DNA of 64,000 nucleotides from Porphyra umbilicalis. Lineage: Eukaryota > Rhodophyta > Bangiophyceae > Bangiales > Bangiaceae. The DNA is taken from contig KV918858.1 of assembly GCA_002049455.2 (NCBI GenBank), forward strand, positions 62,001-126,000, given 5' to 3'. How positions within the stretch are numbered: the first letter of the stretch is position 1; every line of letters begins with the position of its first letter. Below the pieces are notes generated by a model, which did not search any database, had not been told where the DNA came from, and saw only the letters and a list, made by a program, of their open reading frames with translations. A program made the position numbers and the translations under genes. Below, piece after piece: positions 23,999 through 53,915 of the stretch.

Positions 23999-24012
23999 TC
24001 GCGATACAATTT
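23991..24012. promoter_or_regulatory. Perfect 22-bp palindrome centred on TATCGCGATA
   Basis: The 22 bases from AAATTGTATCG to CGATACAATTT read the same on both strands, and TGTATCGC follows again directly. Candidate binding site for a dimeric protein such as the transposase, or a promoter element of the transposase gene. Confidence 0.5.
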
Positions 24013-24373
24013 TGTATCGCACTCGCAGGCCATCCCAGAGGGGGGCACCATCCAGCACGGTCCCAATCATCGACTGGTTTTTCATAATTTGGATCCCGGC
24101 GGCGCTTCCGCACACAGTGATCCGCGCCCTCTGTCGGCGCTTGCAACTCCATCACAGGAGCGTCAGTCGATCGCTAGTCGAGGCGCGCGGCAGCGGCACA
24201 CCAATCGTGAGGGGCCCAGGCTACGAAGAGGATCAACTGGAGGTGGACCTGATGGATGGACACAGAACGTATGTTGGCTCGGGTTGCCAGATGGGAGACC
24301 CGCCCCGCCATCGTGAGACAGCCGACCTTTTTTCGTGTCCAACAGAGTCGTTAACAGTCCCTCGTCTTCGTGC

Positions 24374-27097
24374 ATGTGTTCAACATCTGCTCTATTCTGT
24401 ATCTTTGGCCGGTACAGCTTCACGGAGGCCGAGCTGAAACATGTCTTCCCCGGCAAGGTGTGGGCCTACAGATGCTCAGAATGCACGCGATTCTTCCTCA
24501 AACCGACGGCGGGAATGGCGGCCTGGAAGGAGGAAGCGCGGAGAAGTGCCACGGCTGGGGTGATGTGCGACGTCTCCGCCCTCCCAGTTTCCCAATGCAG
24601 AAGGGGCAAGTGCAGCGCTTGCACCTCACGGCTCCACAGAGCAAGAGTGCCTCCTGTTGGTGGGCCACTTGCTGCGCCGCCCTCCCCTACATCTATCCCG
24701 CCGCGCGTGCCTTCATCCGGGAGTTCGAACGGTGAGTCAGTCGCTGACATGCGCGTGTGCCCGAGCGTGCGCTCTTCTGCTCTGGGGCGGTTCGGCTCTA
24801 AGGCCAGCCGCATTGAGAATGGTGGCAACCCGGGTCGCAACACGCTAGCCCTGGTGAGTGGTCCGCAAGTTCCAGAACCTCCCAATTCACGACATGTTCT
24901 GCCCGCGGAGCCTGCTACGTGCCCCCCCACCCCCCCCGCACCATCCAAACCTCCTGTGAGCTGCAAGGCCCCAGTGAGCTGCAAGGAATTCCTTGACTTG
25001 CTGCTGGCCGGGACCTTCGTTGGGGAGGATGACGAGGTCGTGCTGAGGCGCATTGCAAGCACTGTGCTGCTACGCGGCGCTCCGGATAAGCTGCGCCTCA
25101 CGCGTGGCAACGGCACAACCGTCGCCTATGTGCGACGCGCGTCCATCTGCAAAGAGCGGGTCTCTAAGAGTCGGGTCAATCGGCGTCGGGCGGCGGCTCG
25201 GCGGCACCGGCCGTCGGCGTATCCCGGTGTAGCCGTCCCCCCAGCTCCAAAGGGCGGGCCAAGGGAGGATGAAAATGACCCTGTCGCCGCGTGCCAGCCT
25301 CGCGTCTTCCTCAATCGTCGCATCGCTCCCTCTGTTGAGGAGCAGGTGGGGCTGCTAGAGGTGGCCGGCGTGATCCAACGCGGTTTTGCTCTCATCCGTC
25401 GTGTCTTTTGGGGCGGGCGTGTCGGCATGGCCAGCATTGACCAGCTGCCCCAGGCGCGCAAGCGAATAGAGGCGCTGCCGGCAAAGCAAGTCGTCGTGGG
25501 CGGGGTGAGCGCCCACCTCGCCGACCTACCTTTGGCCGTGCAGGAGCGGGTATCGGCGCTCTGTGCGGGCAAACAATTTTTCGAGCGGGATATCTACGAT
25601 GACGACTACAAGCCGGTTCCCAAGACCGAGCTGTTCTCGGATGCGACGGCCGAGGAACCAGGCGTGCTGACCGGCTGTCCGCCCGCCACCATGAAGGATG
25701 TGCACCTAACGGTGGGCCTCGACAACGGCGGGTGTCCGGCCTCGGTCAAGAATGTGGTGGGAGTTATTAACCAGGCGCGGCCAAGCAACCCCAACAACGC
25801 CATCCTCGCGGCCGTCTGTCCGTGCGAAAAGGACGATTACTGCGACGTAGAGAAAATGCGCAAGACGCTGACCCCGCATTTCAAAGCGCTGTTGACCGGC
25901 GGCCTGTTGGTCGACGGTGAGCGGAGAGCTGTGCGCCTCTTCCCCACGGGAGACTACGATGCATTGTGCACGGTGCTCGGCCACAAAGGCGCGAGTGCGA
26001 ACATGCCGTGCTTGATGTGCCTAAGCACTCGGTCGCCGAGCCGCGAGCACTCTGAGCTGGAATTAAGGTTCCTCACTCTCCAAGACGTTGCTGTAGAGAG
26101 GACCCTGCGGTCAGCAGCACAGTATGTGGGCCATGATGCGCCGGGCCGAAGTGCGGGCACCAATGGCACCTCCAATCCCTCCGAGCCCCAACTGGCACAC
26201 CTGTCCGTGGAACTACCGCCCCTCCTGCTGGCTGATCCACGTCAGATCGTTTCAATTCCTCTGCAGAATACCATGGGTGTTAACAGCCGATTGCTGTCAC
26301 TCGCCACCGAATGCGTGATTAGGTGCAAGGGAGCGGCAGCGGGGCCACGCTTCGCTCGCCGTCTGGCGTCTGTGCTACGGGACGAGGTGGTGGTGACCCC
26401 CGTTCCCTACCACGGGGGTGGGTTCATTGGACGGGATTGTCACTGCATCGGGGAGAGAAGTGACGCCATCTGTCGGTTGCTGCTACTGGAGCTGACCGAA
26501 GAGTTTCACACGGCCTACAAGCGGGCCCGGCTGCCTTGGAACAGGGTACGAAAGCCTCTGAACCGAGCAGCCATCGCCACCGTGGAGGAGGTGCAGCAGT
26601 TCCGGTCCAACACAAAGGCCTTTGTGACGCATCTCAAGAGCGCTTTCCCATGGGTCAGCATCTCTCCCAAACTCCACCTGCTGCTGTGCCACGCTGCTGA
26701 TTTCATGGCCCGGTACGGGAGCATCGGCATGTATGGCGAGCAAGACATCGAGGCGTGGCACGGGCGGTACGGCCAGAGCTCGCGCAAGTACTCGCTGCAC
26801 TCCGAGCTCGCCTGCGCGGCCGCATTCATGCGCGCCATGGCGTTGGCGCGGGAGGCCAGTGAACCGGCCTTGGCGGGGTATGGACCGACTCGCAAGCCAG
26901 CGGCCCTAGGGGCGCACAAGGCGACGAAGTTGGGCGACAAGCGCAAGCGGGAGAATCGTGGGGAGGTCCCTGTCTGTACTGCAAAGGAGGAAAAGGCTGA
27001 GCAAGACCGGAACAAGTGGGCGAGGGATTTAAGCAACAAGGCTGCTGGGACGATGGGAGCGTGGGCCAGGAGAATGAAGAGAGCACGTAAAGAGTAA
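24374..27097 (+). CDS. Transposase-like protein of the two-gene element
   Basis: Uninterrupted frame of 907 codons from the first in-frame ATG; the frame is open 13 codons further upstream from a GTG. Near the N-terminus, YRCSEC (residue ~33) and CRRGKCSAC (~75) could bind zinc. The middle has GLDNGG (~449), GDYDALCTVLGHKG followed by PCLMC (~526), and the C-terminal third has VPYHGGGFIGRDC (~677), SPKLHLLLCHA (~764) and GEQDIEAWH (~789). This ordered set, Asp-containing middle block, PC-x2-C and PKLH...GEQ..E..H, recurs in poorly characterised transposase-like proteins of cnidarians, nematodes and other eukaryotes, and loosely recalls CACTA/Plavaka transposases. Catalytic acids cannot be assigned by eye. 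The tail is Lys/Arg-rich. It faces ORF2 across a 0.85-kb spacer. The frame is intact here, while all repeats carry only its last third. Confidence 0.75.
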   Translation: MCSTSALFCIFGRYSFTEAELKHVFPGKVWAYRCSECTRFFLKPTAGMAAWKEEARRSATAGVMCDVSALPVSQCRRGKCSACTSRLHRARVPPVGGPLAAPPSPTSIPPRVPSSGSSNGESVADMRVCPSVRSSALGRFGSKASRIENGGNPGRNTLALVSGPQVPEPPNSRHVLPAEPATCPPTPPAPSKPPVSCKAPVSCKEFLDLLLAGTFVGEDDEVVLRRIASTVLLRGAPDKLRLTRGNGTTVAYVRRASICKERVSKSRVNRRRAAARRHRPSAYPGVAVPPAPKGGPREDENDPVAACQPRVFLNRRIAPSVEEQVGLLEVAGVIQRGFALIRRVFWGGRVGMASIDQLPQARKRIEALPAKQVVVGGVSAHLADLPLAVQERVSALCAGKQFFERDIYDDDYKPVPKTELFSDATAEEPGVLTGCPPATMKDVHLTVGLDNGGCPASVKNVVGVINQARPSNPNNAILAAVCPCEKDDYCDVEKMRKTLTPHFKALLTGGLLVDGERRAVRLFPTGDYDALCTVLGHKGASANMPCLMCLSTRSPSREHSELELRFLTLQDVAVERTLRSAAQYVGHDAPGRSAGTNGTSNPSEPQLAHLSVELPPLLLADPRQIVSIPLQNTMGVNSRLLSLATECVIRCKGAAAGPRFARRLASVLRDEVVVTPVPYHGGGFIGRDCHCIGERSDAICRLLLLELTEEFHTAYKRARLPWNRVRKPLNRAAIATVEEVQQFRSNTKAFVTHLKSAFPWVSISPKLHLLLCHAADFMARYGSIGMYGEQDIEAWHGRYGQSSRKYSLHSELACAAAFMRAMALAREASEPALAGYGPTRKPAALGAHKATKLGDKRKRENRGEVPVCTAKEEKAEQDRNKWARDLSNKAAGTMGAWARRMKRARKE

Positions 27098-28772
27098 AAG
27101 ACATTTGGTTGAGGGTACCCACGAGCAGAAGTCGTGACACAGAGAACGGCAGACGCACAGGAGAGGAAAAACGAGAAAAAACGAATCGAAAATCTGTGCT
27201 GACGCGGCGTCAGTTGCGTGAACACGACATGACAGGCATTGACAAGCACGAAGATGCGCACCTAACAAAGACCATCACTCTGTGCAGTCGGTGCGGGTCC
27301 CCTCTCCCACCCACTTGCGCCGTCCCGACGGCCACACGAGTACCTCCAGGAACAGCGCCTCCACTATCGGGCATGCATGAGCGAGGCAAGGACGCAATTG
27401 AAGCCGGAGACAAGGAGGGAAGAAGAGGTAGGAGGTAGCATAAGTCACTATCTACGAGCCCACGCACCGCCCTACGCACCTCTCTTGACCCGCCACCTGT
27501 GGGCACCGCCGCGATGCGTCCATGACGAAGAGCGAAGCACGCGCAAGGCGAGAGCACACGACGTGGTAATCAAATTTGTGATACAAAGGCAGCAGCAAGA
27601 AGCAACACACCAGACGGAGGGAAGTTCCAAGAAGCCGCAGCCGAGTCATCGGCTGTACTGGTCACAATGGCCAAAATCGCCTGTGTGCACCCTCACCTGT
27701 ATGATGACTTTCAAAGATTGAGCGCTTCTTTGGATGATTGTGTGAGGGGCGGAAGCCGGGGAGGGTTTGCCTCCCCATCGGGACGGCCTGCGTGCCTGCG
27801 TCTGTGTCTGGGGCGCACTGGCGCTTGCCACGTGCCACGTCGGTGTTCGCGTGGGGGTCGACACGACGTGGGTGGGACGCGTTCGTCCCCGCCGACCGGG
27901 TGCTTTTGACGCCAAAAAATACTCCCAAAAATAACAGGAAAAAGCTTACTAAAGCGAAAACACATTGGCATCAGAAATCGTCACATCAATAGCCGTGCTT
28001 GGCACGACAATGGGACGGTGCATCCCCAGGGCATCACACATAGCACGACACAAATTCAGAGGGAGACGCCTGGGCACCACATCCGAGCCCTCCGCATCAG
28101 CAATGATGCCCCTGCTGTACAAAAAAGGCATGGTAAATGTCAGCAGAAAAACGGGAGCAAAGGGCGCCGGACTGCGAGGCCCCATAACGACAGCCAGAGT
28201 GTCGAAATCTGTAACCCGATACTGTGCAGCCGTCCGTCTTCGCTGGAGCAGGACGTAGGAACAGCCCCTGGTTGAAGAAAATGAACCAGCCTTAAGTTGC
28301 AGACGCTCCAGCTGCGGCGGGGCGCCTACACCACGCCACAGCAAGCCATCGACGACGCCGCCGTCGAATAGTGGGCAAAAAGCGCCTCCCCGCCGACTTG
28401 CCAAACTGCCAATCGCGACCATCCCCTGCTGCTCCGTAACGCCCCTTGCCGTTGGTCCAATCAACCACCCGGCCAGCGTCGTCAGCCAATCGGCGTCCCC
28501 CGTGTTGATCGGTGACGCCGAAGTCAAGCGCCGCGGCACATGCGCACGAAGCCGCTGTAAGAGGGATGTTCTTGTCGTGATCAGGAAGGTGAGCTTGAGA
28601 GGTCCGCGCTTGTGGCGTGTCGAAGAAACCGACCTACAGACATTGTTTGGGCGAAGACCGCTCCGATTGCGCCACAGTAAGTCGATCTGGAAGGCCTCGC
28701 CAGCAATGAAGTCCGGCGAACCAGCGGCGGGAAGGGCCACGAAGAACGCCTCGTCAGGATACCAAGTAGAGT
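26293..28772. repeat. Array unit 1 (joined to the full transposase)
   Basis: 2480 bp. Its transposase part is the 3' end of the complete gene; its ORF2 part (27949-28740, minus) is cut at the junction. It carries two private bases in the ORF2 part (a C in GAAACCGACC near 28628 and CAGCGGCGGG near 28733), shared with no other unit. Confidence 0.9.
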
Positions 28773-31251
28773 GCTGTCACTCGCCACCGAATGCGTGATT
28801 AGGTGCAAGGGAGCGGCAGCGGGGCCACGCTTCGCTCGCCGTCTGGCGTCTGTGCTACGGGACGAGGTGGTGGTGACCCCCGTTCCCTACCACGGGGGTG
28901 GGTTCATTGGACGGGATTGTCACTGCATCGGGGAGAGAAGTGACGCCATCTGTCGGTTGCTGCTACTGGAGCTGACCGAAGAGTTTCACACGGCCTACAA
29001 GCGGGCCCGGCTGCCTTGGAACAGGGTACGAAAGCCTCTGAACCGAGCAGCCATCGCCACCGTGGAGGAGGTGCAGCAGTTCCGGTCCAACACAAAGGCC
29101 TTTGTGACGCATCTCAAGAGCGCTTTCCCATGGGTCAGCATCTCTCCCAAACTCCACCTGCTGCTGTGCCACGCTGCTGATTTCATGGCCCGGTACGGGA
29201 GCATCGGCATGTATGGCGAGCAAGACATCGAGGCGTGGCACGGGCGGTACGGCCAGAGCTCGCGCAAGTACTCGCTGCACTCCGAGCTCGCCTGCGCGGC
29301 CGCATTCATGCGCGCCATGGCGTTGGCGCGGGAGGCCAGTGAACCGGCCTTGGCGGGGTATGGACCGACTCGCAAGCCAGCGGCCATAGGGGCGCACAAG
29401 GCGACGAAGTTGGGCGACAAGCGCAAGCGGGAGAATCGTGGGGAGGTCCCTGTCTGTACTGCAAAGGAGGAAAAGGCTGAGCAAGACCGGAACAAGTGGG
29501 CGAGGGATTTAAGCAACAAGGCTGCTGGGACGATGGGAGCGTGGGCCAGGAGAATGAAGAGAGCACGTAAAGAGTAAAAGACATTTGGTTGAGGGTACCC
29601 ACGAGCAGAAGTCGTGACACAGAGAACGGCAGACGCACAGGAGAGGAAAAACGAGAAAAAACGAATCGAAAATCTGTGCTGACGCGGCGTCAGTTGCGTG
29701 AACACGACATGACAGGCATTGACAAGCACGAAGATGCGCACCTAACAAAGACCATCACTCTGTGCAGTCGGTGCGGGTCCCCTCTCCCACCCACTTGCGC
29801 CGTCCCGACGGCCACACGAGTACCTCCAGGAACAGCGCCTCCACTATCGGGCATGCATGAGCGAGGCAAGGACGCAATTGAAGCCGGAGACAAGGAGGGA
29901 AGAAGAGGTAGGAGGTAGCATAAGTCACTATCTACGAGCCCACGCACCGCCCTACGCACCTCTCTTGACCCGCCACCTGTGGGCACCGCCGCGATGCGTC
30001 CATGACGAAGAGCGAAGCACGCGCAAGGCGAGAGCACACGACGTGGTAATCAAATTTGTGATACAAAGGCAGCAGCAAGAAGCAACACACCAGACGGAGG
30101 GAAGTTCCAAGAAGCCGCAGCCGAGTCATCGGCTGTACTGGTCACAATGGCCAAAATCGCCTGTGTGCACCCTCACCTGTATGATGACTTTCAAAGATTG
30201 AGCGCTTCTTTGGATGATTGTGTGAGGGGCGGAAGCCGGGGAGGGTTTGCCTCCCCATCGGGACGGCCTGCGTGCCTGCGTCTGTGTCTGGGGCGCACTG
30301 GCGCTTGCCACGTGCCACGTCGGTGTTCGCGTGGGGGTCGACACGACGTGGGTGGGACGCGTTCGTCCCCGCCGACCGGGTGCTTTTGACGCCAAAAAAT
30401 ACTCCCAAAAATAACAGGAAAAAGCTTACTAAAGCGAAAACACATTGGCATCAGAAATCGTCACATCAATAGCCGTGCTTGGCACGACAATGGGACGGTG
30501 CATCCCCAGGGCATCACACATAGCACGACACAAATTCAGAGGGAGACGCCTGGGCACCACATCCGAGCCCTCCGCATCAGCAATGATGCCCCTGCTGTAC
30601 AAAAAAGGCATGGTAAATGTCAGCAGAAAAACGGGAGCAAAGGGCGCCGGACTGCGAGGCCCCATAACGACAGCCAGAGTGTCGAAATCTGTAACCCGAT
30701 ACTGTGCAGCCGTCCGTCTTCGCTGGAGCAGGACGTAGGAACAGCCCCTGGTTGAAGAAAATGAACCAGCCTTAAGTTGCAGACGCTCCAGCTGCGGCGG
30801 GGCGCCTACACCACGCCACAGCAAGCCATCGACGACGCCGCCGTCGAATAGTGGGCAAAAAGCGCCTCCCCGCCGACTTGCCAAACTGCCAATCGCGACC
30901 ATCCCCTGCTGCTCCGTAACGCCCCTTGCCGTTGGTCCAATCAACCACCCGGCCAGCGTCGTCAGCCAATCGGCGTCCCCGTGTTGATCGGTGACGCCGA
31001 AGTCAAGCGCCGCGGCACATGCGCACGAAGCCGCTGTAAGAGGGATGTTCTTGTCGTGATCAGGAAGGTGAGCTTGAGAGGTCCGCGCTTGTGGCGTGTC
31101 GAAGAAATCGACCTACAGACATTGTTTGGGCGAAGACCGCTCCGATTGCGCCACAGTAAGTCGATCTGGAAGGCCTCGCCAGCAATGAAGTCCGGCGAAC
31201 CAGCAGCGGGAAGGGCCACGAAGAACGCCTCGTCAGGATACCAAGTAGAGT
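28773..31251. repeat. Array unit 2
   Basis: 2479 bp. The transposase fragment (to 29577) has an Ile in KPAAIGAHK where most units have Leu. One C is missing from the five-C run near 30980, which shortens the antisense ORF2 frame in this unit. Neither gene fragment keeps its own ATG start. Confidence 0.9.
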
Positions 31252-33729
31252 GCTGTCACTCGCCACCGAATGCGTGATTAGGTGCAAGGGAGCGGCAGCG
31301 GGGCCACGCTTCGCTCGCCGTCTGGCGTCTGTGCTACGGGACGAGGTGGTGGTGACCCCCGTTCCCTACCACGGGGGTGGGTTCATTGGACGGGATTGTC
31401 ACTGCATCGGGGAGAGAAGTGACGCCATCTGTCGGTTGCTGCTACTGGAGCTGACCGAAGAGTTTCACACGGCCTACAAGCGGGCCCGGCTGCCTTGGAA
31501 CAGGGTACGAAAGCCTCTGAACCGAGCAGCCATCGCCACCGTGGAGGAGGTGCAGCAGTTCCGGTCCAACACAAAGGCCTTTGTGACGCATCTCAAGAGC
31601 GCTTTCCCATGGGTCAGCATCTCTCCCAAACTCCACCTGCTGCTGTGCCACGCTGCTGATTTCATGGCCCGGTACGGGAGCATCGGCATGTATGGCGAGC
31701 AAGACATCGAGGCGTGGCACGGGCGGTACGGCCAGAGCTCGCGCAAGTACTCGCTGCACTCCGAGCTCGCCTGCGCGGCCGCATTCATGCGCGCCATGGC
31801 GTTGGCGCGGGAGGCCAGTGAACCGGCCTTGGCGGGGTATGGACCGACTCGCAAGCCAGCGGCCCTAGGGGCGCACAAGGCGACGAAGTTGGGCGACAAG
31901 CGCAAGCGGGAGAATCGTGGGGAGGTCCCTGTCTGTACTGCAAAGGAGGAAAAGGCTGAGCAAGACCGGAACAAGTGGGCGAGGGATTTAAGCAACAAGG
32001 CTGCTGGGACGATGGGAGCGTGGGCCAGGAGAATGAAGAGAGCACGTAAAGAGTAAAAGACATTTGGTCGAGGGTACCCACGAGCAGAAGTCGTGACACA
32101 GAGAACGGCAGACGCACAGGAGAGGAAAAACGAGAAAAAACGAATCGAAAATCTGTGCTGACGCGGCGTCAGTTGCGTGAACACGACATGACAGGCATTG
32201 ACAAGCACGAAGATGCGCACCTAACAAAGACCATCACTCTGTGCAGTCGGTGCGGGTCCCCTCTCCCACCCACTTGCGCCGTCCCGACGGCCACACGAGT
32301 ACCTCCAGGAACAGCGCCTCCACTATCGGGCATGCATGAGCGAGGCAAGGACGCAATTGAAGCCGGAGACAAGGAGGGAAGCAGAGGTAGGAGGTAGCAT
32401 AAGTCACTATCTACGAGCCCACGCACCGCCCTACGCACCTCTCTTGACCCGCCACCTGTGGGCACCGCCGCGATGCGTCCATGACGAAGAGCGAAGCACG
32501 CGCAAGGCGAGAGCACACGACGTGGTAATCAAATTTGTGATACAAAGGCAGCAGCAAGAAGCAACACACCAGACGGAGGGAAGTTCCAAGAAGCCGCAGC
32601 CGAGTCATCGGCTGTACTGGTCACAATGGCCAAAATCGCCTGTGTGCACCCTCACCTGTATGATGACTTTCAAAGATTGAGCGCTTCTTTGGATGATTGT
32701 GTGAGGGGCGGAAGCCGGGGAGGGTTTGCCTCCCATCGGGACGGCCTGCGTGCCTGCGTCTGTGTCTGGGGCGCACTGGCGCTTGCCACGTGCCACGTCG
32801 GTGTTCGCGTGGGGGTCGACACGACGTGGGTGGGACGCGTTCGTCCCCGCCGACCGGGTGCTTTTGACGCCAAAAAATACTCCCAAAAATACAGGAAAAA
32901 GCTTACTAAAGCGAAAACACATTGGCATCAGAAATCGTCACATCAATAGCCGTGCTTGGCACGACAATGGGACGGTGCATCCCCAGGGCATCACACATAG
33001 CACGACACAAATTCAGAGGGAGACGCCTGGGCACCACATCCGAGCCCTCCGCATCAGCAATGATGCCCCTGCTGTACAAAAAAGGCATGGTAAATGTCAG
33101 CAGAAAAACGGGAGCAAAGGGCGCCGGACTGCGAGGCCCCATAACGACAGCCAGAGTGTCGAAATCTGTAACCCGATACTGTGCAGCCGTCCGTCTTCGC
33201 TGGAGCAGGACGTAGGAACAGCCCCTGGTTGAAGAAAATGAACCAGCCTTAAGTTGCAGACGCTCCAGCTGCGGCGGGGCGCCTACACCACGCCACAGCA
33301 AGCCATCGACGACGCCGCCGTCGAATAGTGGGCAAAAAGCGCCTCCCCGCCGACTTGCCAAACTGCCAATCGCGACCATCCCCTGCTGCTCCGTAACGCC
33401 CCTTGCCGTTGGTCCAATCAACCACCCGGCCAGCGTCGTCAGCCAATCGGCGTCCCCCGTGTTGATCGGTGACGCCGAAGTCAAGCGCCGCGGCACATGC
33501 GCACGAAGCCGCTGTAAGAGGGATGTTCTTGTCGTGATCAGGAAGGTGAGCTTGAGAGGTCCGCGCTTGTGGCGTGTCGAAGAAATCGACCTACAGACAT
33601 TGTTTGGGCGAAGACCGCTCCGATTGCGCCACAGTAAGTCGATCTGGAAGGCCTCGCCAGCAATGAAGTCCGGCGAACCAGCAGCGGGAAGGGCCACGAA
33701 GAACGCCTCGTCAGGATACCAAGTAGAGT
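31252..33729. repeat. Array unit 3
   Basis: 2478 bp. One base is missing in TCCCCATC near 32733 and one in AAATAACAGG near 32890, both in the spacer, and there is a GCAGAGG variant near 32380. The transposase fragment runs to 32056 and the ORF2 fragment is 32906-33697 (minus). Confidence 0.9.
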
Positions 33730-36209
33730 GCTGTCACTCGCCACCGAATGCGTGATTAGGTGCAAGGGAGCGGCAGCGGGGCCACGCTTCGCTCGCCGTC
33801 TGGCGTCTGTGCTACGGGACGAGGTGGTGGTGACCCCCGTTCCCTACCACGGGGGTGGGTTCATTGGACGGGATTGTCACTGCATCGGGGAGAGAAGTGA
33901 CGCCATCTGTCGGTTGCTGCTACTGGAGCTGACCGAAGAGTTTCACACGGCCTACAAGCGGGCCCGGCTGCCTTGGAACAGGGTACGAAAGCCTCTGAAC
34001 CGAGCAGCCATCGCCACCGTGGAGGAGGTGCAGCAGTTCCGGTCCAACACAAAGGCCTTTGTGACGCATCTCAAGAGCGCTTTCCCATGGGTCAGCATCT
34101 CTCCCAAACTCCACCTGCTGCTGTGCCACGCTGCTGATTTCATGGCCCGGTACGGGAGCATCGGCATGTATGGCGAGCAAGACATCGAGGCGTGGCACGG
34201 GCGGTACGGCCAGAGCTCGCGCAAGTACTCGCTGCACTCCGAGCTCGCCTGCGCGGCCGCATTCATGCGCGCCATGGCGTTGGCGCGGGAGGCCAGTGAA
34301 CCGGCCTTGGCGGGGTATGGACCGACTCGCAAGCCAGCGGCCCTAGGGGCGCACAAGGCGACGAAGTTGGGCGACAAGCGCAAGCGGGAGAATCGTGGGG
34401 AGGTCCCTGTCTGTACTGCAAAGGAGGAAAAGGCTGAGCAAGACCGGAACAAGTGGGCGAGGGATTTAAGCAACAAGGCTGCTGGGACGATGGGAGCGTG
34501 GGCCAGGAGAATGAAGAGAGCACGTAAAGAGTAAAAGACATTTGGTCGAGGGTACCCACGAGCAGAAGTCGTGACACAGAGAACGGCAGACGCACAGGAG
34601 AGGAAAAACGAGAAAAAACGAATCGAAAATCTGTGCTGACGCGGCGTCAGTTGCGTGAACACGACATGACAGGCATTGACAAGCACGAAGATGCGCACCT
34701 AACAAAGACCATCACTCTGTGCAGTCGGTGCGGGTCCCCTCTCCCACCCACTTGCGCCGTCCCGACGGCCACACGAGTACCTCCAGGAACAGCGCCTCCA
34801 CTATCGGGCATGCATGAGCGAGGCAAGGACGCAATTGAAGCCGGAGACAAGGAGGGAAGAAGAGGTAGGAGGTAGCATAAGTCACTATCTACGAGCCCAC
34901 GCACCGCCCTACGCACCTCTCTTGACCCGCCACCTGTGGGCACCGCCGCGATGCGTCCATGACGAAGAGCGAAGCACGCGCAAGGCGAGAGCACACGACG
35001 TGGTAATCAAATTTGTGATACAAAGGCAGCAGCAAGAAGCAACACACCAGACGGAGGGAAGTTCCAAGAAGCCGCAGCCGAGTCATCGGCTGTACTGGTC
35101 ACAATGGCCAAAATCGCCTGTGTGCACCCTCACCTGTATGATGACTTTCAAAGATTGAGCGCTTCTTTGGATGATTGTGTGAGGGGCGGAAGCCGGGGAG
35201 GGTTTGCCTCCCCATCGGGACGGCCTGCGTGCCTGCGTCTGTGTCTGGGGCGCACTGGCGCTTGCCACGTGCCACGTCGGTGTTCGCGTGGGGGTCGACA
35301 CGACGTGGGTGGGACGCGTTCGTCCCCGCCGACCGGGTGCTTTTGACGCCAAAAAATACTCCCAAAAATAACAGGAAAAAGCTTACTAAAGCGAAAACAC
35401 ATTGGCATCAGAAATCGTCACATCAATAGCCGTGCTTGGCACGACAATGGGACGGTGCATCCCCAGGGCATCACACATAGCACGACACAAATTCAGAGGG
35501 AGACGCCTGGGCACCACATCCGAGCCCTCCGCATCAGCAATGATGCCCCTGCTGTACAAAAAAGGCATGGTAAATGTCAGCAGAAAAACGGGAGCAAAGG
35601 GCGCCGGACTGCGAGGCCCCATAACGACAGCCAGAGTGTCGAAATCTGTAACCCGATACTGTGCAGCCGTCCGTCTTCGCTGGAGCAGGACGTAGGAACA
35701 GCCCCTGGTTGAAGAAAATGAACCAGCCTTAAGTTGCAGACGCTCCAGCTGCGGCGGGGCGCCTACACCACGCCACAGCAAGCCATCGACGACGCCGCCG
35801 TCGAATAGTGGGCAAAAAGCGCCTCCCCGCCGACTTGCCAAACTGCCAATCGCGACCATCCCCTGCTGCTCCGTAACGCCCCTTGCCGTTGGTCCAATCA
35901 ACCACCCGGCCAGCGTCGTCAGCCAATCGGCGTCCCCCGTGTTGATCGGTGACGCCGAAGTCAAGCGCCGCGGCACATGCGCACGAAGCCGCTGTAAGAG
36001 GGATGTTCTTGTCGTGATCAGGAAGGTGAGCTTGAGAGGTCCGCGCTTGTGGCGTGCCGAAGAAATCGACCTACAGACATTGTTTGGGCGAAGACCGCTC
36101 CGATTGCGCCACAGTAAGTCGATCTGGAAGGCCTCGCCAGCAATGAAGTCCGGCGAACCAGCAGCGGGAAGGGCCACGAAGAACGCCTCGTCAGGATACC
36201 AAGTAGAGT
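33730..36209. repeat. Array unit 4
   Basis: 2480 bp. Transposase fragment to 34534; ORF2 fragment 35386-36177 (minus) with a private substitution giving Ala in SISSARHK. Shares GGTCGAGGG after the transposase stop with units 3, 5 and 6, against GGTTGAGGG in 1, 2, 8 and 9. Confidence 0.9.
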
Positions 36210-38689: not shown

Positions 38690-41106
38690 GCTGTCACTCG
38701 CCACCGAATGCGTGATTAGGTGCAAGGGAGCGGCAGCGGGGCCACGCTTCGCTCGCCGTCTGGCGTCTGTGCTACGGGACGAGGTGGTGGTGACCCCCGT
38801 TCCCTACCACGGGGGTGGGTTCATTGGACGGGATTGTCACTGCATCGGGGAGAGAAGTGACGCCATCTGTCGGTTGCTGCTACTGGAGCTGACGAAGAGT
38901 TTCACACGGCCTACAAGCGGGCCTGGCTGCCTTGGAACAGGGTACGAAAGCCTCTGAACCGAGCAGCCATCGCCACCGTGGAGGAGGTGCAGCAGTTCCG
39001 GTCCAACACAAAGGCCTTTGTGACGCATCTCAAGAGCGCTTTCCCATGGGTCAGCATCTCTCCCAAACTCCACCTGCTGCTGTGCCACGCTGCTGATTTC
39101 ATGGCCCGGTACGGGAGCATCGGCATGTATGGCGAGCAAGACATCGAGGCGTGGCACGGGCGGTACGGCCAGAGCTCGCGCAAGTACTCGCTGCACTCCG
39201 AGCTCGCCTGCGCGGCCGCATTCATGCGCGCCATGGCGTTGGCGCGGGAGGCCAGTGAACCGGCCTTGGCGGGGTATGGACCGACTCGCAAGCCAGCGGC
39301 CCTAGGGGCGCACAAGGCGACGAAGTTGGGCGACAAGCGCAAGCGGGAGAATCGTGGGGAGGTCCCTGTCTGTACTGCAAAGGAGGAAAAGGCTGAGCAA
39401 GACCGGAACAAGTGGGCGAGGGATTTAAGCAACAAGGCTGCTGGGACGATGGGAGCGTGGGCCAGGAGAATGAAGAGAGCACGTAAAGAGTAAAAGACAT
39501 TTGGTCGAGGGTACCCACGAGCAGAAGTCGTGACACAGAGAACGGCAGACGCACAGGAGAGGAAAAACGAGAAAAAACGAATCGAAAATCTGTGCTGACG
39601 CGGCGTCAGTTGCGTGAACACGACATGACAGGCATTGACAAGCACGAAGATGCGCACCTAACAAAGACCATCACTCTGTGCAGTCGGTGCGGGTCCCCTC
39701 TCCCACCCACTTGCGCCGTCCCGACGGCCACACGAGTACCTCCAGGAACAGCGCCTCCACTATCGGGCATGCATGAGCGAGGCAAGGACGCAATTGAAGC
39801 CGGAGACAAGGAGGGAAGAAGAGGTAGGAGGTAGCATAAGTCACTATCTACGAGCCCACGCACCGCCCTACGCACCTCTCTTGACCCGCCACCTGTGGGC
39901 ACCGCCGCGATGCGTCCATGACGAAGAGCGAAGCACGCGCAAGGCGAAGCACACGACGTGGTAATCAAATTTGTGATACAAAGGCAGCAGCAAGAAGCAA
40001 CACACCAGACAGGAAGTCCAAGAAGCCGCAGCCGAGTCATCGGCTGTACTGGTCACAATGGCCAAAATCGCCTGTGTGCACCCTCACCTGTATGATGACT
40101 TTCAAAGATTGAGCGCTTCTTTGGATGATTGTGTGAGGGGCGGAAGCCGGGGAGGGTTTGCCTCCCCATCGGGACGGCCTGCGTGCCTGCGTCTGTGTCT
40201 GGGGCGCACTGGCGCTTGCCACGTGCCACGTCGGTGTTCGCGTGGGGTCGACACGACGTGGGTGGGACGCGTTCGTCCCCGCCGACCGGGTGCTTTTGAC
40301 GCCAAAAAATACTCCCAAAAATAACAGGAAAAAGCTTACTAAAGCGAAAACACATTGGCATCAGAAATCGTCACATCAATAGCCGTGCTTGGCACGACAA
40401 TGGGACGGTGCATCCCCAGGGCATCACACATAGCACGACACAAATTCAGAGGGAGACGCCTGGGCACCACATCCGAGCCCTCCGCATCAGCAATGATGCC
40501 CCTGCTGTACAAAAAAGGCATGGTAAATGTCAGCAGAAAAACGGGAGCAAAGGGCGCCGGACTGCGAGGCCCCATAACGACAGCCAGAGTGTCGAAATCT
40601 GTAACCCGATACTGTGCAGCCGTCCGTCTTCGCTGGAGCAGGACGTAGGAACAGCCCCTGGTTGAAGAAAATGAACCAGCCTTAAAGTTGCAGACGCTCC
40701 AGCTGCGGCGGGGCGCCTACACCACGCCACAGCAAGCCATCGACGACGCCGCCGTCGAATAGTGGGCAAAAAGCGCCCCCCGCCGACTTGCCAAACTGCC
40801 AATCGCGGACCATCCCCTGCTGCTCCGTAACGCCCCTTGCCGTTGGTCCAATCAACCCACCCGCCAGCGTCGTCAAGCCAACGGCGTCCCCCGTGTTGAT
40901 CGGTTGACGCCGGAAGTCAAGCGCCGCGGGCGACATGCGCACGAAGCCCGCTGTAAGAGGATGTTCTGTCGTGATCAGGAAGGTGAGCTTGAGAGGTCCG
41001 CGCTTGTGCGTGTCCGAAGAAAAATCGACCTACAGACATTGTTTGGGCGAAGACCGCTCCGATTGCGCCACAGTAAGTCGATCTGGAAGGCCTCGCCAGC
41101 AATGAA
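38690..41106. repeat. Array unit 6, cut by the assembly gap
   Basis: 2417 bp before the run of N. Single-base indels rise steeply towards the gap: one at about 38893, several between 39945 and 40020, and many from 40680 to 41030. This is typical of a poorly covered contig end, so frames here should not be interpreted. Confidence 0.85.
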
Positions 41107-41902
41107 NNNNNNNNNNNNNNNNNNNNNNNNNNNNNNNNNNNNNNNNNNNNNNNNNNNNNNNNNNNNNNNNNNNNNNNNNNNNNNNNNNNNNNNNNNNNNN
41201 NNNNNNNNNNNNNNNNNNNNNNNNNNNNNNNNNNNNNNNNNNNNNNNNNNNNNNNNNNNNNNNNNNNNNNNNNNNNNNNNNNNNNNNNNNNNNNNNNNNN
41301 NNNNNNNNNNNNNNNNNNNNNNNNNNNNNNNNNNNNNNNNNNNNNNNNNNNNNNNNNNNNNNNNNNNNNNNNNNNNNNNNNNNNNNNNNNNNNNNNNNNN
41401 NNNNNNNNNNNNNNNNNNNNNNNNNNNNNNNNNNNNNNNNNNNNNNNNNNNNNNNNNNNNNNNNNNNNNNNNNNNNNNNNNNNNNNNNNNNNNNNNNNNN
41501 NNNNNNNNNNNNNNNNNNNNNNNNNNNNNNNNNNNNNNNNNNNNNNNNNNNNNNNNNNNNNNNNNNNNNNNNNNNNNNNNNNNNNNNNNNNNNNNNNNNN
41601 NNNNNNNNNNNNNNNNNNNNNNNNNNNNNNNNNNNNNNNNNNNNNNNNNNNNNNNNNNNNNNNNNNNNNNNNNNNNNNNNNNNNNNNNNNNNNNNNNNNN
41701 NNNNNNNNNNNNNNNNNNNNNNNNNNNNNNNNNNNNNNNNNNNNNNNNNNNNNNNNNNNNNNNNNNNNNNNNNNNNNNNNNNNNNNNNNNNNNNNNNNNN
41801 NNNNNNNNNNNNNNNNNNNNNNNNNNNNNNNNNNNNNNNNNNNNNNNNNNNNNNNNNNNNNNNNNNNNNNNNNNNNNNNNNNNNNNNNNNNNNNNNNNNN
41901 NN
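41107..41902. other. Assembly gap, 796 N
   Basis: Unresolved bases inside the array. To keep the units in register the missing length would have to be about 1163 bp plus a multiple of about 2480 bp, so 796 is only a scaffolding estimate and whole units may be absent. Confidence 0.98.
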
Positions 41903-43926
41903 ACGCAATTGAAGCCGGAGACAAGGAGGGAAGAAGAGGTAGGAGGTAGCATAAGTCACTATCTACGAGCCCACGCACCGCCCTACGCACCTCTCTTGAC
42001 CTGCCACCTGTGGGCACCGCCGCGATGCGTCCATGACGAAGAGCGAAGCACGCGCAAGGCGAGAGCACACGACGTGGTAATCAAATTTGTGATACAAAGG
42101 CAGCAGCAAGAAGCAACAAACCAGACGGAGGGAAGTACCAAGAAGCCGACAGGCACAGCCAAACCGAGTAGCACAAGGTGGGGGGTCAAATGGAACGGGG
42201 AGGACTGAGCTCTGCGACGAGCCATGTCAGAGAGCCGTGTCAGAAACCGGGATACATACAGAGAAAGTGGAGACGAGGGGCACCGGTGCGTGGCCATGAT
42301 CGAGCCGGGAGCGGGCAGGGGAGAGGGAGCGCTGCTGCAAAGGGCAGGCAACGCACTGGCGTGTCGGTCGCCTAGTGTCAGGAACTGGTCATAACCGCGC
42401 AGGCACGCACGCGGCGTCCAGACGATGGTACATATACGCGTGCAGACGCAGGGGAGGGTACCCGAGCACGACGCACGGCAAGTAGGCACGGCAAGTCAGG
42501 CCCAACAGCCAGGCAGCCTCGCATCGAGGCGAGCAACCGCCAAGCCGAGCAAAATGCGCGCTCCAGAGCAGCCACGTTGTTTTTGGCGTCAATCACAGCC
42601 CAGCTTCCCAGGTATTCCTGAACTATCTGACAGCGTGAATGGGAGCCAATAGATGGAGAGAATTTCATTTCTTGGCCAATGAATGGTCTTATTTGCTCTA
42701 TGCGTCGATTCACAGTGCATTCACTAGGCGTGAGGGATGGCACCAATAAAATGCTTGAATTGAACTAAATTGATTTCAGACATGTTTAATTCAGCCAAGT
42801 CATCGGCTGTACTGGTCACAATGGCCAAAATCGCCTGTGTGCACCCTCACCTGTATGATGACTTTCAAAGATTGAGCGCTTCTTTGGATGATTGTGTGAG
42901 GGGCGGAAGCCGGGGAGGGTTTGCCTCCCCATCGGGACGGCCTGCGTGCCTGCGTCTGTGTCTGGGGCGCACTGGCGCTTGCCACGTGCCACGTCGGTGT
43001 TCGCGTGGGGGTCGACACGACGTGGGTGGGACGCGTTCGTCCCCGCCGACCGGGTGCTTTTGACGCCAAAAAATACTCCCAAAAATGACAGGAAAAAGCT
43101 TACTAAAGCGAAAACACATTGGCATCAGAAATCGTCACATCAATAGCCGTGCTTGGCACGACAATGGGACGGTGCATCCCCAGGGCATCACACATAGCAC
43201 GACACAAATTCAGAGGGAGACGCCTGGGCACCACATCCGAGCCCTCCGCATCAGCAATGATGCCCCTGCTGTACAAAAAAGGCATGGTAAATGTCAGCAG
43301 AAAAACGGGAGCAAAGGGCGCCGGACTGCGAGGCCCCATAACGACAGCCAGAGTGTCGAAATCTGTAACCCGATACTGTGCAGCCGTCCGTCTTCGCTGG
43401 AGCAGGACGTAGGAACAGCCCCTGGTTGAAGAAAATGAACCAGCCTTAAGTTGCAGACGCTCCAGCTGCGGCGGGGCGCCTACACCACGCCACAGCAAGC
43501 CATCGACGACGCCGCCGTCGAATAGTGGGCAAAAAGCGCCTCCCCGCCGACTTGCCAAACTGCCAATCGCGACCATCCCCTGCTGCTCCGTAACGCCCCT
43601 TGCCGTTGGTCCAATCAACCACCCGGCCAGCGTCGTCAGCCAATCGGCGTCCCCCGTGTTGATCGGTGACGCCGAAGTCAAGCGCCGCGGCACATGCGCA
43701 CGAAGCCGCTGTAAGAGGGATGTTCTTGTCGTGATCAGGAAGGTGAGCTTGAGAGGTCCGCGCTTGTGGCGTGTCGAAGAAATCGACCTACAGACATTGT
43801 TTGGGCGAAGACCGCGCCGATTGCGCCACAGTAAGTCGATCTGGAAGGCCTCGCCAGCAATGAAGTCCGGCGAACCAGCAGCGGGAAGGGCCACGAAGAA
43901 CGCCTCGTCAGGATACCAAGTAGAGT
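41903..43926. repeat. Array unit 7 (partial, after the gap, with 643-bp insert)
   Basis: Starts about 1099 bp into a unit, so the transposase part is lost in the gap. It holds the spacer, an extra 643-bp segment at 42149-42791, and the ORF2 fragment 43103-43894 (minus). Confidence 0.88.
42149..42791. repeat. 643-bp extra segment in unit 7
   Basis: Interrupts the spacer between AGAAGCCG and CAGCC(A/G)AGTCATCGG. It starts ACAGGCACAGCC and ends TTTAATT just before CAGCC, so a CAGCC word lies near both edges. It is less GC-rich near its right end and includes AATAAA. No reading frame of note and no clear terminal inverted repeat. Confidence 0.8.
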
Positions 43927-46900
43927 GCTGTCACTCGCCACCGAATGCGTGATTAGGTGCAAGGGAGCGGCAGCGGGGCCACGCTTCGCTCGCCGTCTGG
44001 CGTCTGTGCTACGGGACGAGGTGGTGGTGACCCCCGTTCCCTACCACGGGGGTGGTTCATTGGACGGGATTGTCACTGCATCGGGGAGAGAAGTGACGCC
44101 ATCTGTCGGTTGCTGCTACTGGAGCTGACCGAAGAGTTTCACACGGCCTACAAGCGGGCCCGGCTGCCTTGGAACAGGGTACGAAAGCCTCTGAACCGAG
44201 CAGCCATCGCCACCGTGGAGGAGGTGCAGCAGTTCCGGTCCAACACAAAGGCCTTTGTGACGCATCTCAAGAGCGCTTTCCCATGGGTCAGCATCTCTCC
44301 CAAACTCCACCTGCTGCTGTGCCACGCTGCTGATTTCATGGCCCGGTACGGGAGCATCGGCATGTATGGCGAGCAAGACATCGAGGCGTGGCACGGGCGG
44401 TACGGCCAGAGCTCGCGCAAGTACTCGCTGCACTCCGAGCTCGCCTGCGCGGCCGCATTCATGCGCGCCATGGCGTTGGCGCGGGAGGCCAGTGAACCGG
44501 CCTTGGCGGGGTATGGACCGACTCGCAAGCCAGCGGCCATAGGGGCGCACAAGGCGACGAAGTTGGGCGACAAGCGCAAGCGGGAGAATCGTTGGGAGGT
44601 CCCTGTCTGTACTGCAAAGGAGGAAAAGGCTGAGCAAGACCGGAACAAGTGGGCGAGGGATTTAAGCAACAAGGCTGCTGGGACGATGGGAGCGTGGGCC
44701 AGGAGAATGAAGAGAGCACGTAAAGAGTAAAAGACATTTGGTTGAGGGTACCCACGAGCAGAAGTCGTGACACAGAGAACGGCAGACGCACAGGAGAGGA
44801 AAAACGAGAAAAAAACGAATCGAAAATCTGTGCTGACGCGGCGTCAGTTGCGTGAACACGACATGACAGGCATTGACAAGCACGAAGATGCGCACCTAAC
44901 AAAGACCATCACTCTGTGCAGTCGGTGCGGGTCCCCTCTCCCACCCACTTGCGCCGTCCCGACGGCCACACGAGTACCTCCAGGAACAGCGCCTCCACTA
45001 TCGGGCATGCATGAGCGAGGCAAGGACGCAATTGAAGCCGGAGACAAGGAGGGAAGAAGAGGTAGGAGGTAGCATAAGTCACTATCTACGAGCCCACGCA
45101 CCGCCCTACGCACCTCTCTTGACCCGCCACCTGTGGGCACCGCCGCGATGCGTCCATGACGAAGAGCGAAGCACGCGCAAGGCGAGAGCACACGACGTGG
45201 TAATCAAATTTGTGATACAAAGGCAGCAGCAAGAAGCAACAAACCAGACGGAGGGAAGTACCAAGAAGCCGACAGGCACAGCCAAACCGAGTAGCACAAG
45301 GTGGGGGGTCAAATGGAACGGGGAGGACTGAGCTCTGCGACGAGCCATGTCAGAGAGCCGTGTCAGAAACCGGGATACATACAGAGAAAGTGGAGACGAG
45401 GGGCACCGGTGCGTGGCCATGATCGAGCCGGGAGCGGGCAGGGGAGAGGGAGCGCTGCTGCAAAGGGCAGGCAACGCACTGGCGTGTCGGTCGCCTAGTG
45501 TCAGGAACTGGTCATAACCGCGCAGGCACGCACGCGGCGTCCAGACGATGGTACATATACGCGTGCAGACGCAGGGGAGGGTACCCGAGCACGACGCACG
45601 GCAAGTAGGCACGGCAAGTCAGGCCCAACAGCCAGGCAGCCTCGCATCGAGGCGAGCAACCGCCAAGCCGAGCAAAATGCGCGCTCCAGAGCAGCCACGT
45701 TGTTTTTGGCGTCAATCACAGCCCAGCTTCCCAGGTATTCCTGAACTATCTGACAGCGTGAATGGGAGCCAATAGATGGAGAGAATTTCATTTCTTGGCC
45801 AATGAATGGTCTTATTTGCTCTATGCGTCGATTCACAGTGCATTCACTCGGCGTGAGGGATGGCACCAATAAAATGCTTGAATTGAACTAAATTGATTTT
45901 ATACATGTTTAATTCAGCCAAGTCATCGGCTGTCCTGGTCACAATGGCCAAAATCGCCTGTGTGCACCCTCACCTGTATGATGACTTTCAAAGATTGAGC
46001 GCTTCTTTGGATGATTGTGTGAGGGGCGGAAGCCGGGGAGGGTTTGCCTCCCCATCGGGACGGCCTGCGTGCCTGCGTCTGTGTCTGGGGCGCACTGGCG
46101 CTTGCCACGTGCCACGTCGGTGTTCGCGTGGGGGTCGACACGACGTGGGTGGGACGCGTTCGTCCCCGCCGACCGGGTGCTTTTGACGCCAAAAAATACT
46201 CCCAAAAATAACAGGAAAAAGCTTACTAAAGCGAAAACACATTGGCATGAGAAATCGTCACATCAATAGCCGTGCTTGGCACGACAATGGGACGGTGCAT
46301 CCCCAGGGCATCACACATAGCACGACACAAATTCAGAGGGAGACGCCTGGGCACCACATCCGAGCCCTCCGCATCAGCAATGATGCCCCTGCTGTACAAA
46401 AAAGGCATGGTAAATGTCAGCAGAAAAACGGGAGCAAAGGGCGCCGGACTGCGAGGCCCCATAACGACAGCCAGAGTGTCGAAATCTGTAACCCGATACT
46501 GTGCAGCCGTCCGTCTTCGCTGGAGCAGGACGTAGGAACAGCCCCTGGTTGAAGAAAATGAACCAGCCTTAAGTTGCAGACGCTCCAGCTGCGGCGGGGC
46601 GCCTACACCACGCCACAGCAAGCCATCGACGACGCCGCCGTCGAATAGTGGGCAAAAAGCGCCTCCCCGCCGACTTGCCAAACTGCCAATCGCGACCATC
46701 CCCTGCTGCTCCGTAACGCCCCTTGCCGTTGGTCCAATCAACCACCCGGCCAGCGTCGTCAGCCAATCGGCGTCCCCCGTGTTGATCGGTGACGCCGAAG
46801 TCAAGCGCCGCGGCACATGCGCACGAAGCCGCTGTAAGAGGGATGTTCTTGTCGTGATCAGGAAGGTGAGCTTGAGAGGTCCGCGCTTGTGGCGTGTCGA

Positions 46901-47049
46901 AGAAATCGACCTACAGACATTGTTTGGGCGAAGACCGCTCCGATTGCGCCACAGTAAGTCGATCTGGAAGGCCTCGCCAGCAATGAAGTCCGGCGAACCA
47001 GCAGCGGGAAGGGCCACGAAGAACGCCTCGTCAGGATACCAAGTAGAGT
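43927..47049. repeat. Array unit 8 (with 643-bp insert)
   Basis: 3123 bp because of the extra segment at 45272-45914. The transposase fragment lacks one G near 44055, shifting its first part, and has the same KPAAIGAHK variant as unit 2. ORF2 fragment 46226-47017 (minus). Confidence 0.9.
45272..45914. repeat. 643-bp extra segment in unit 8
   Basis: Same position and length as in unit 7, with only a few substitutions (for example ATTTTATACATG here against ATTTCAGACATG there). Equality of position means that the two copies come from unit duplication and not from two separate insertions. Confidence 0.85.
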
Positions 47050-49529
47050 GCTGTCACTCGCCACCGAATGCGTGATTAGGTGCAAGGGAGCGGCAGCGGG
47101 GCCACGCTTCGCTCGCCGTCTGGCGTCTGTGCTACGGGACGAGGTGGTGGTGACCCCCGTTCCCTACCACGGGGGTGCGTTCATTGGACGGGATTGTCAC
47201 TGCATCGGGGAGAGAAGTGACGCCATCTGTCGGTTGCTGCTACTGGAGCTGACCGAAGAGTTTCACACGGCCTACAAGCGGGCCCGGCTGCCTTGGAACA
47301 GGGTACGAAAGCCTCTGAACCGAGCAGCCATCGCCACCGTGGAGGAGGTGCAGCAGTTCCGGTCCAACACAAAGGCCTTTGTGACGCATCTCAAGAGCGC
47401 TTTCCCATGGGTCAGCATCTCTCCCAAACTCCACCTGCAGCTGTGCCACGCTGCTGATTTCATGGCCCGGTACGGGAGCATCGGCATGTATGGCGAGCAA
47501 GACATCGAGGCGTGGCACGGGCGGTACGGCCAGAGCTCGCGCAAGTACTCGCTGCACTCCGAGCTCGCCTGCGCGGCCGCATTCATGCGCGCCATGGCGT
47601 TGGCGCGGGAGGCCAGTGAACCGGCCTTGGCGGGGTATGGACCGACTCGCAAGCCAGCGGCCCTAGGGGCGCACAAGGCGACGAAGTTGGGCGACAAGCG
47701 CAAGCGGGAGAATCGTGGGGAGGTCCCTGTCTGTACTGCAAAGGAGGAAAAGGCTGAGCAAGACCGGAACAAGTGGGCGAGGGATTTAAGCAACAAGGCT
47801 GCTGGGACGATGGGAGCGTGGGCCAGGAGAATGAAGAGAGCACGTAAAGAGTAAAAGACATTTGGTTGAGGGTACCCACGAGCAGAAGTCGTGACACAGA
47901 GAACGGCAGACGCACAGGAGAGGAAAAACGAGAAAAAACGAATCGAAAATCTGTGCTGACGCGGCGTCAGTTGCGTGAACACGACATGACAGGCATTGAC
48001 AAGCACGAAGATGCGCACCTAACAAAGACCATCACTCTGTGCAGTCGGTGCGGGTCCCCTCTCCCACCCACTTGCGCCGTCCCGACGGCCACACGAGTAC
48101 CTCCAGGAACAGCGCCTCCACTATCGGGCATGCATGAGCGAGGCAAGGACGCAATTGAAGCCGGAGACAAGGAGGGAAGAAGAGGTAGGAGGTAGCATAA
48201 GTCACTATCTACGAGCCCACGCACCGCCCTACGCACCTCTCTTGACCCGCCACCTGTGGGCACCGCCGCGATGCGTCCATGACGAAGAGCGAAGCACGCG
48301 CAAGGCGAGAGCACACGACGTGGTAATCAAATTTGTGATACAAAGGCAGCAGCAAGAAGCAACACACCAGACGGAGGGAAGTTCCAAGAAGCCGCAGCCG
48401 AGTCATCGGCTGTACTGGTCACAATGGCCAAAATCGCCTGTGTGCACCCTCACCTGTATGATGACTTTCAAAGATTGAGCGCTTCTTTGGATGATTGTGT
48501 GAGGGGCGGAAGCCGGGGAGGGTTTGCCTCCCCATCGGGACGGCCTGCGTGCCTGCGTCTGTGTCTGGGGCGCACTGGCGCTTGCCACGTGCCACGTCGG
48601 TGTTCGCGTGGGGGTCGACACGACGTGGGTGGGACGCGTTCGTCCCCGCCGACCGGGTGCTTTTGACGCCAAAAAATACTCCCAAAAATAACAGGAAAAA
48701 GCTTACTAAAGCGAAAACACATTGGCATCAGAAATCGTCACATCAATAGCCGTGCTTGGCACGACAATGGGACGGTGCATCCCCAGGGCATCACACATAG
48801 CACGACACAAATTCAGAGGGAGACGCCTGGGCACCACATCCGAGCCCTCCGCATCAGCAATGATGCCCCTGCTGTACAAAAAAGGCATGGTAAATGTCAG
48901 CAGAAAAACGGGAGCAAAGGGCGCCGGACTGCGAGGCCCCATAACGACAGCCAGAGTGTCGAAATCTGTAACCCGATACTGTGCAGCCGTCCGTCTTCGC
49001 TGGAGCAGGACGTAGGAACAGCCCCTGGTTGAAGAAAATGAACCAGCCTTAAGTTGCAGACGCTCCAGCTGCGGCGGGGCGCCTACACCACGCCACAGCA
49101 AGCCATCGACGACGCCGCCGTCGAATAGTGGGCAAAAAGCGCCTCCCCGCCGACTTGCCAAACTGCCAATCGCGACCATCCCCTGCTGCTCCGTAACGCC
49201 CCTTGCCGTTGGTCCAATCAACCACCCGGCCAGCGTCGTCAGCCAATCGGCGTCCCCCGTGTTGATCGGTGACGCCGAAGTCAAGCGCCGCGGCACATGC
49301 GCACGAAGCCGCTGTAAGAGGGATGTTCTTGTCGTGATCAGGAAGGTGAGCTTGAGAGGTCCGCGCTTGTGGCGTGTCGAAGAAATCGACCTACAGACAT
49401 TGTTTGGGCGAAGACCGCTCCGATTGCGCCACAGTAAGTCGATCTGGAAGGCCTCGCCAGCAATGAAGTCCGGCGAACCAGCAGCGGGAAGGGCCACGAA
49501 GAACGCCTCGTCAGGATACCGAGTAGAGT
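47050..49529. repeat. Array unit 9 (joined to the full ORF2)
   Basis: 2480 bp, without the extra segment. Transposase fragment to 47854. At its right edge the sequence does not jump back to the transposase but continues as GAGTAGAGTGGAGCG into the rest of ORF2, giving the ancestral right side of the junction. Confidence 0.9.
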
Positions 49530-53905: not shown

Positions 53906-53915
53906 GGCGTGTCCA

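Follow-up and report, generated by a model that had tools for sequence, protein, structure and literature searches.

The DNA analysed here (the window) is a stretch of 64,000 nucleotides from Porphyra umbilicalis (GenBank assembly GCA_002049455.2, contig KV918858.1, positions 62,001 to 126,000 of the forward strand; coordinates below count from the first letter of the window). It contains a head-to-tail array of at least nine near-identical units of about 2.48 kb, each containing the facing last parts of two convergent open reading frames, ORF1 and ORF2. We argue that this array probably results from one internal duplication of what is itself probably a two-gene DNA transposon, followed by growth through unequal exchange. 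It would thereby represent an early stage in the birth of a satellite from protein-coding, probably transposon, sequence. At this single locus one can still read the first junction together with the native sequence on either side of the array and, in part, the order in which it later grew. The features concerned are as follows.

24374 to 27097, + strand: ORF1, 907 amino acids, probable DDE transposase; the only complete copy
26290 to 28769: unit 1, 2480 bp, continuous with the complete ORF1
28756 to 28778: first junction, where ORF2 sequence meets ORF1 sequence; the TG microhomology is at 28772-28773
28770 to 31248: unit 2, 2479 bp
31249 to 33726: unit 3, 2478 bp
33727 to 36206: unit 4, 2480 bp
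36207 to 38686: unit 5, 2480 bp
38687 to 41106: unit 6, cut by a run of N
41107 to 41902: assembly gap of 796 N, which hides at least one unit border
41903 to 43923: unit 7, its start hidden by the run of N; has an extra 643 bp
42149 to 42791: extra 643-bp segment of unit 7, between the ends of both genes
43924 to 47046: unit 8, 3123 bp
45272 to 45914: extra 643-bp segment of unit 8, 99.5% identical to the copy in unit 7
47047 to 49530: unit 9, continuous with the remainder of ORF2
48706 to 50796, - strand: ORF2 frame, 696 amino acids, convergent with ORF1; the one copy of full length; its start codon and N-terminus are uncertain

Comparison of the window with itself and direct reading of the borders show that the array spans positions 26290-49530. 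Eight unit starts (the first coordinates of units 1 to 6, 8 and 9 above) and eight unit ends are present in the sequence, the end of unit 6 and the start of unit 7 being inside the run of N. The ninth start must also sit in this run, since unit 6 reaches unit position 2420, unit 7 begins at unit position 1103, and unit 7 has a segment without counterpart in the part of unit 6 that it overlaps. The units are 2478-2480 bp long, with the exception of unit 8, which reaches 3123 bp because it has the extra segment of 643 bp between the ends of both genes. Compared in pairs, the eight units without unit 6 are 99.42-99.96% identical; in the same alignment, the pairs that involve unit 6 are 97.5-98.9% identical.

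Each unit contains the 268 C-terminal amino acids of ORF1 (30% of 907) and, in convergent orientation, some 272 from the C-terminal end of ORF2 (39% of the 696-residue frame). These partial frames are mostly open: that of ORF1 in six of eight units (units 1 to 5 and 9; it is broken in units 6 and 8, and unit 7 is outside the count), that of ORF2 in seven of eight (units 1, 3 to 5 and 7 to 9; it is broken in unit 2, and unit 6 is outside the count). The breaks in units 2 and 8 are single-base deletions, which could be sequence errors. A preliminary description of this DNA had reported at least nine near-identical head-to-tail units, each with the last thirds of both genes facing each other, between the only complete ORF1 on the left and the only complete ORF2 on the right. 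Self-comparison, the reading of the borders and the continuity of both genes with the array bear out this layout, with the proportions just given.

The native left edge, at 26292-26293 on the ORF1 side, reads CCGATTG/CTGTC and the native right edge, at 49529-49530 on the ORF2 side, reads GAGTAGAGTG/GAGCG; the junction between successive units reads AAGTAGAGTG/CTGTC. The seven readable junctions are all identical over 43 bases before and 60 bases after the border, and unit position 2475 is an A at each of the seven and a G at the native right edge (the end of unit 9). The same breakpoint and the same G-to-A neighbour at all seven mean that there was a single joining event, from which all readable junctions descend. 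The microhomology at the junction amounts to two bases (TG), a length that is frequent by random joining. The repeated insertion of whole elements was rejected as the origin of the array, since the units have neither the N-terminus of ORF1 nor that of ORF2.

Growth of the array

The scheme that we favour would start with a two-gene DNA transposon, consisting of ORF1, with its zinc-insert DDE spacing, and the convergent ORF2. A break in this element would have led to the joining, out of register, of the ORF2 point 49529/49530 to the point 26292/26293, which is two thirds into ORF1; with two base pairs of homology, this first joining may have been an end joining or a template switch after the break. 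From the moment the 2.48-kb segment was present twice, the array would have grown by homologous unequal exchange or by an equivalent recombination-dependent replication. This growth would have taken two rounds or more, and in one of them a unit with the extra 643-bp segment would have been copied; the exchange would also have kept the inner units alike.

The variants shared between units bear on the order of these steps. At unit positions 617 and 821, the haplotype is C,T in units 1 and 9, A,T in units 2 and 8, and C,C in units 3 to 6 (unit 7 is not covered at these positions). The outer pairs (1 and 9, 2 and 8) match each other across the inner block of units 3 to 6. Besides the 643-bp segment, units 7 and 8 have three substitutions in common, at positions 1319, 1337 and 1354, none of them more than 30 bases away from the segment. 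We note that this segment, which has no match elsewhere in the window (E values up to 1), lies among these clustered common substitutions as if it came from a diverged copy. Since variants are shared at positions 617 and 821 and in the form of the 643-bp segment, growth occurred more than once.

The private substitutions number 2, 0, 1, 1, 0, 1, 3, 3 and 2 in units 1 to 9, respectively (indels, that is, insertions and deletions, and the native edge bases at position 2 in unit 1 and 2475 in unit 9 are excluded; unit 9 has 3 when 2475 is counted). These small numbers fit an inside-out growth in which the outer units are older and which took at least two rounds, one of them copying a block or the long unit. 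Position 821 changes state twice along the array, and as few changes or fewer occur in 8 of 70 arrangements. Position 617, on the contrary, changes four times, which is the maximum; taken alone it argues against a simple neighbour-to-neighbour growth, and block duplication or conversion is needed to reconcile it with the proposed scheme. The earlier proposal was one initial duplication followed by unequal exchange or replication slippage, with homogenisation. One internal duplication followed by exchange between units is well supported by the single junction, the nested shared variants and the greater number of private substitutions in units 1, 7, 8 and 9 than in units 2 to 6, but growth took at least two rounds, and one of them involved a unit longer by 643 bp.

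The main mechanistic rival is a single burst, in which a rolling circle or an extrachromosomal circle of the 2.48-kb segment was reinserted by homology. The one junction type and the very high identity fit a circle that was closed once, and end joining in such a circle would leave the same junction. However, a single round would not yield the nested shared variants, nor the 643-bp variant common to two units, unless a mixture existed beforehand, and we consider such a burst unlikely. One internal duplication followed by growth through unequal exchange fits best.

The nature of the surrounding sequence

The sequence around the array is likely to be a transposon. The candidate metal and zinc ligands of ORF1 are spaced D527-19-C546-3-C549 and H768-5-H773-20-E793. 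These are exactly the spacings of D708-C727-C730 and H937-H942-E962 in mouse RAG1, as the ligands are given in the part of PMC4914335 that describes them. The candidate first aspartate, D450, was picked by eye and lies 77 residues before D527, versus 108 for the first two aspartates of RAG1. Of 200,000 composition shuffles, 3.8% contain the first pattern and 2.4% the second; 0.0145% contain both, in this order and with 150-300 residues between them, a figure that is an aid and no proof, the spacing test having been chosen only after the resemblance had been spotted by eye. Among 133 control frames (stop-to-stop, at least 150 amino acids, outside 24301-51100, 35,067 amino acids in total), none has the first pattern, one has the second and none has both. 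The sequence of ORF1 allows no closer placement than the broad group of DDE transposases with a zinc insert, to which it probably belongs.

The base composition points in the same direction. At third codon positions, ORF1 has a G+C content of 0.71 and the C-terminal part of ORF2 one of 0.64, versus 0.90 and 0.88 in two other genes of the window, which code for an Argonaute and for a TIG-domain protein. Upstream of ORF1, G+C is 51-67% per 100 bp at 23701-24300, versus 71-88% at 23001-23700. The DNA upstream of ORF1 also contains a possible pair of subterminal repeats, of which no further copy was found in the window at up to 7 mismatches:

23935 to 23993, + strand: 28-bp motif in two direct copies

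Several observations weigh against this reading. ORF1 has no significant match in Pfam (the only match of its core up to E = 10 is DUF7199, which is sub-threshold) and none in the PDB, where the best match is a ribosomal protein with E values of 0.65 and 0.11, weak enough to be taken as chance. Searches for relatives gave five pattern matches to ORF1 in viral contigs and 27 to its core in GTDB genome contigs, and none of either was confirmed. The single-sequence structure model of the ORF1 core is poor, with a predicted local distance difference test score (pLDDT) of 36. The same holds for ORF2: it has no significant match in Pfam, only sub-threshold matches to DUF families, its C-terminal part has two pattern matches in viral contigs of which none was confirmed, and its single-sequence model is poor (pLDDT 31). 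Besides, third-position G+C is 0.89 in the N-terminal part of the ORF2 frame, similar to the host-like genes, and from 49901 on the frame is low-complexity, with 72-92% G+C per 100 bp; this N-terminal part may be foreign to the element. A PD-(D/E)xK-like string in ORF2 was a single loose pattern match and was not used. An exact 23-mer of the unit had no match in the viral contigs, a collection that is not eukaryotic.

The search for the ends of the element also counts on the negative side. With 23300-24374 scanned on the left and 49600-54000 on the right, where the flank is low-complexity, the best terminal pair starting with CAC, at 24046 and 51891, has 15 of 20 matching bases and four of five target bases and scores 21.0; the maxima of 60 shuffles have a median of 19.0, a 95% point of 21.0 and a largest value of 21.5. 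Pairs with other starts (CA, GG, CC, TA and GC) score 17-21.5, values that come without a shuffle control. In a second scan, no 3-bp target duplication accompanied any of the 15 best CAC-started pairs. When the flanks were compared by a plain inverted-repeat search, the 25 matches listed were all GC-rich and low-complexity, and a seeded search gave, among the matches listed, three pairs below 75% G+C, all lacking a target duplication. One of these three is an exact inverted match of 12 bases (23749-23760 and 56213-56224) that includes the start, five bases long, of a CACAGTG at 23756, where G+C drops; the full inverted partner of this motif was absent among eight right-hand candidates. Last, position 51070, the end of the element in the preliminary description, belongs to another frame (50012-51070); the ORF2 frame continuing into the units is 50796-48706.

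It could be argued from these results that ORF1 and ORF2 are a pair of host genes whose convergent 3' ends were duplicated in tandem, with no transposon involved. The want of convincing terminal repeats or of a target duplication, and of a match to a transposase model, would be expected of such a pair. The DDE residues and the zinc-insert spacing of ORF1 would not be, nor would the third-position G+C, which is below that of the two other genes in the window, or the DNA directly upstream of ORF1, which is lower in G+C than the DNA farther left; we regard a host gene pair as rather improbable. The preliminary description had the array growing inside an inserted transposon and not by repeated insertion. 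Its second half stands. The DDE and zinc spacing of a RAG1-type transposase is present, but the insertion itself is no more than plausible, given that no Pfam or PDB match is significant and that the best terminal-repeat pair is within the range of the shuffles.

The assembly gap and the neighbourhood

The length of the run of N is out of phase with the repeat, which would call for some 1160 + 2480k bases (1162 by computation). The gap length is therefore an estimate, further units may be hidden in it, and the unit count is a minimum. The preliminary description mentions neither this gap nor the extra segment of units 7 and 8 nor the indels of unit 6. With unit 5 as the reference, units 1, 2, 3 and 4 differ by 4, 3, 3 and 1 events, respectively, and units 6, 7, 8 and 9 by 24, 7, 11 and 4, unit 7 being read over little more than half of the unit. 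In unit 6, 23 of the 24 events are indels of one or two bases, and 17 of these 23 lie between 40684 and the gap. Because the small indels crowd beside the gap, the divergence of unit 6 is most likely uncorrected sequence error at a low-quality contig end and not biology; a true biological divergence was rejected on this error pattern. A T>C change seemingly common to units 4 and 6 at position 2331 was rejected as well, since the pairwise alignment puts an insertion there in unit 6. The variants used here were taken from the pairwise list, the list from the MAFFT alignment overstating the substitutions of unit 6.

A gap in the array and one low-quality unit make the order and the number of units uncertain, which tells against the proposed history, and they raise the possibility that one or two real units were multiplied by a mis-assembly of long reads. 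The run of N, the small indels of the adjoining unit 6 and the out-of-phase gap length are what such an artefact could leave. Private substitutions, a segment common to two units and nested shared variants are not expected from mis-assembling one unit, and five complete units stand in a single gap-free stretch, so that we hold an artefact to be quite improbable. It is very improbable that the array is a functional, natural silencing locus, whose convergent transcripts would give a double-stranded RNA that silences the element family: the units do hold only the convergent 3' ends of both genes and there is an Argonaute gene in the window at 10287-12308, but its proximity is probably a coincidence.

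The Argonaute gene and the other features found around the element are listed below.

10287 to 12308, + strand: Argonaute gene, with a Piwi domain (E value 1.6e-73) and linker and Mid domains; no visible intron over about 500 codons; the last slicer-site histidine is seemingly replaced (by eye)
17185 to 19074, - strand: host-like gene for an IPT/TIG-domain protein
19745 to 20046: 15-bp G-rich tandem repeat GCCGGGGGGGCGGCC, about 20 copies
53123 to 53438, 53675 to 53904 and 55012 to 55176: three blocks of a 12-bp satellite with a consensus close to GGGGTGTTACTC
55833 to 57075 and 57633 to 58878: inverted repeat with arms of about 1246 bp, 91.7% identity and a 557-bp spacer
56387 to 57169, + strand, and 57274 to 58458, - strand: frames that overlap the arms of this inverted repeat
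61205 to 62113, + strand: host-like gene for an Rtf2 RING-finger protein

Comparison with known systems

Regarding the genes, the resemblance to RAG-like transposons lies in ORF1, which has the RAG1-type spacing of catalytic residues and zinc ligands, and in the gene arrangement: ProtoRAG has two convergent genes, as here, according to the part of PMC7204232 that deals with it. On the contrary, in AanRAGL of the alga Aureococcus both genes have the same direction (PMC9435367), and the published terminal elements of AanRAGL are absent from the window. The label of RAG-like transposon was rejected, since ORF2, although convergent, shows no PHD pattern and no sign of kelch repeats, with two GG pairs in its last 420 amino acids, and ORF1 does not have the C-terminal tail motif of RAG1L, Cx2Cx3GHx4C (motifs as given in the part of PMC7204232 concerned with them), and there are no convincing terminal repeats of the CAC type. 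It is rather improbable that ORF1 is a deep, so far undescribed branch of the RAG1/Transib group, convergent with an unrelated protein in the place of RAG2L, with the gene ends turned into a satellite. If it were so, the locus would bear on how RAG-type transposons gained their second gene.

CACTA proteins have a similar H-H-E spacing. In Transposase_21 of CACTA (En/Spm) elements, the relevant part of PMC1636069 describes two conserved aspartates 80 residues apart and a CxxC in the domain of the second; the distance is 77 in ORF1, and CxxC is found in both. ORF1, however, has no Pfam match to a transposase, Transposase_21 included, and no termini of the CACTA type with a short duplication were found among the 15 best CAC-started pairs. 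Algae, protists and fungi do not occur in the text of PMC8355894.

Regarding the array, the so-called first steps model, reviewed in PMC6947457, derives satellites from parts of mobile elements, such as the helitron DINE-TR1. As in that model, in the sections of the review that set it out, a part of an element was here duplicated and then expanded; the difference is that the model invokes exchange between homologous elements, whereas the first junction here has two base pairs of homology and resembles end joining. The same sections relay the suggestion that the initial duplication can be set off by breaks that a transposase makes.

The closest precedent for the array is Tetris, a foldback transposon of Drosophila virilis, in which tandem units (the TIR-220 satellite) have grown inside the element, as told in the portion of PMC4079207 devoted to it. 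There too, the units were multiplied within the element, long arrays are flanked by parts of the element, and unequal crossing-over was proposed; that portion also reports that the copies in long arrays are more alike than those in short arrays. The Tetris unit differs in being of about 220 bp and lying within the terminal inverted repeats, versus 2.48 kb here, with the 3' parts of two convergent genes whose frames are mostly open. The feature that defines the Tetris case is found in Porphyra as well, where near-identical head-to-tail units of an internal segment have on either side the unique remainder of what is probably one element. In a narrow survey of the open-access literature, we found no case of tandem growth with a multi-kilobase coding unit. 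With this array, the already known route from mobile element to satellite gains a clean example in coding sequence, from a eukaryotic genome that is rich in G+C.

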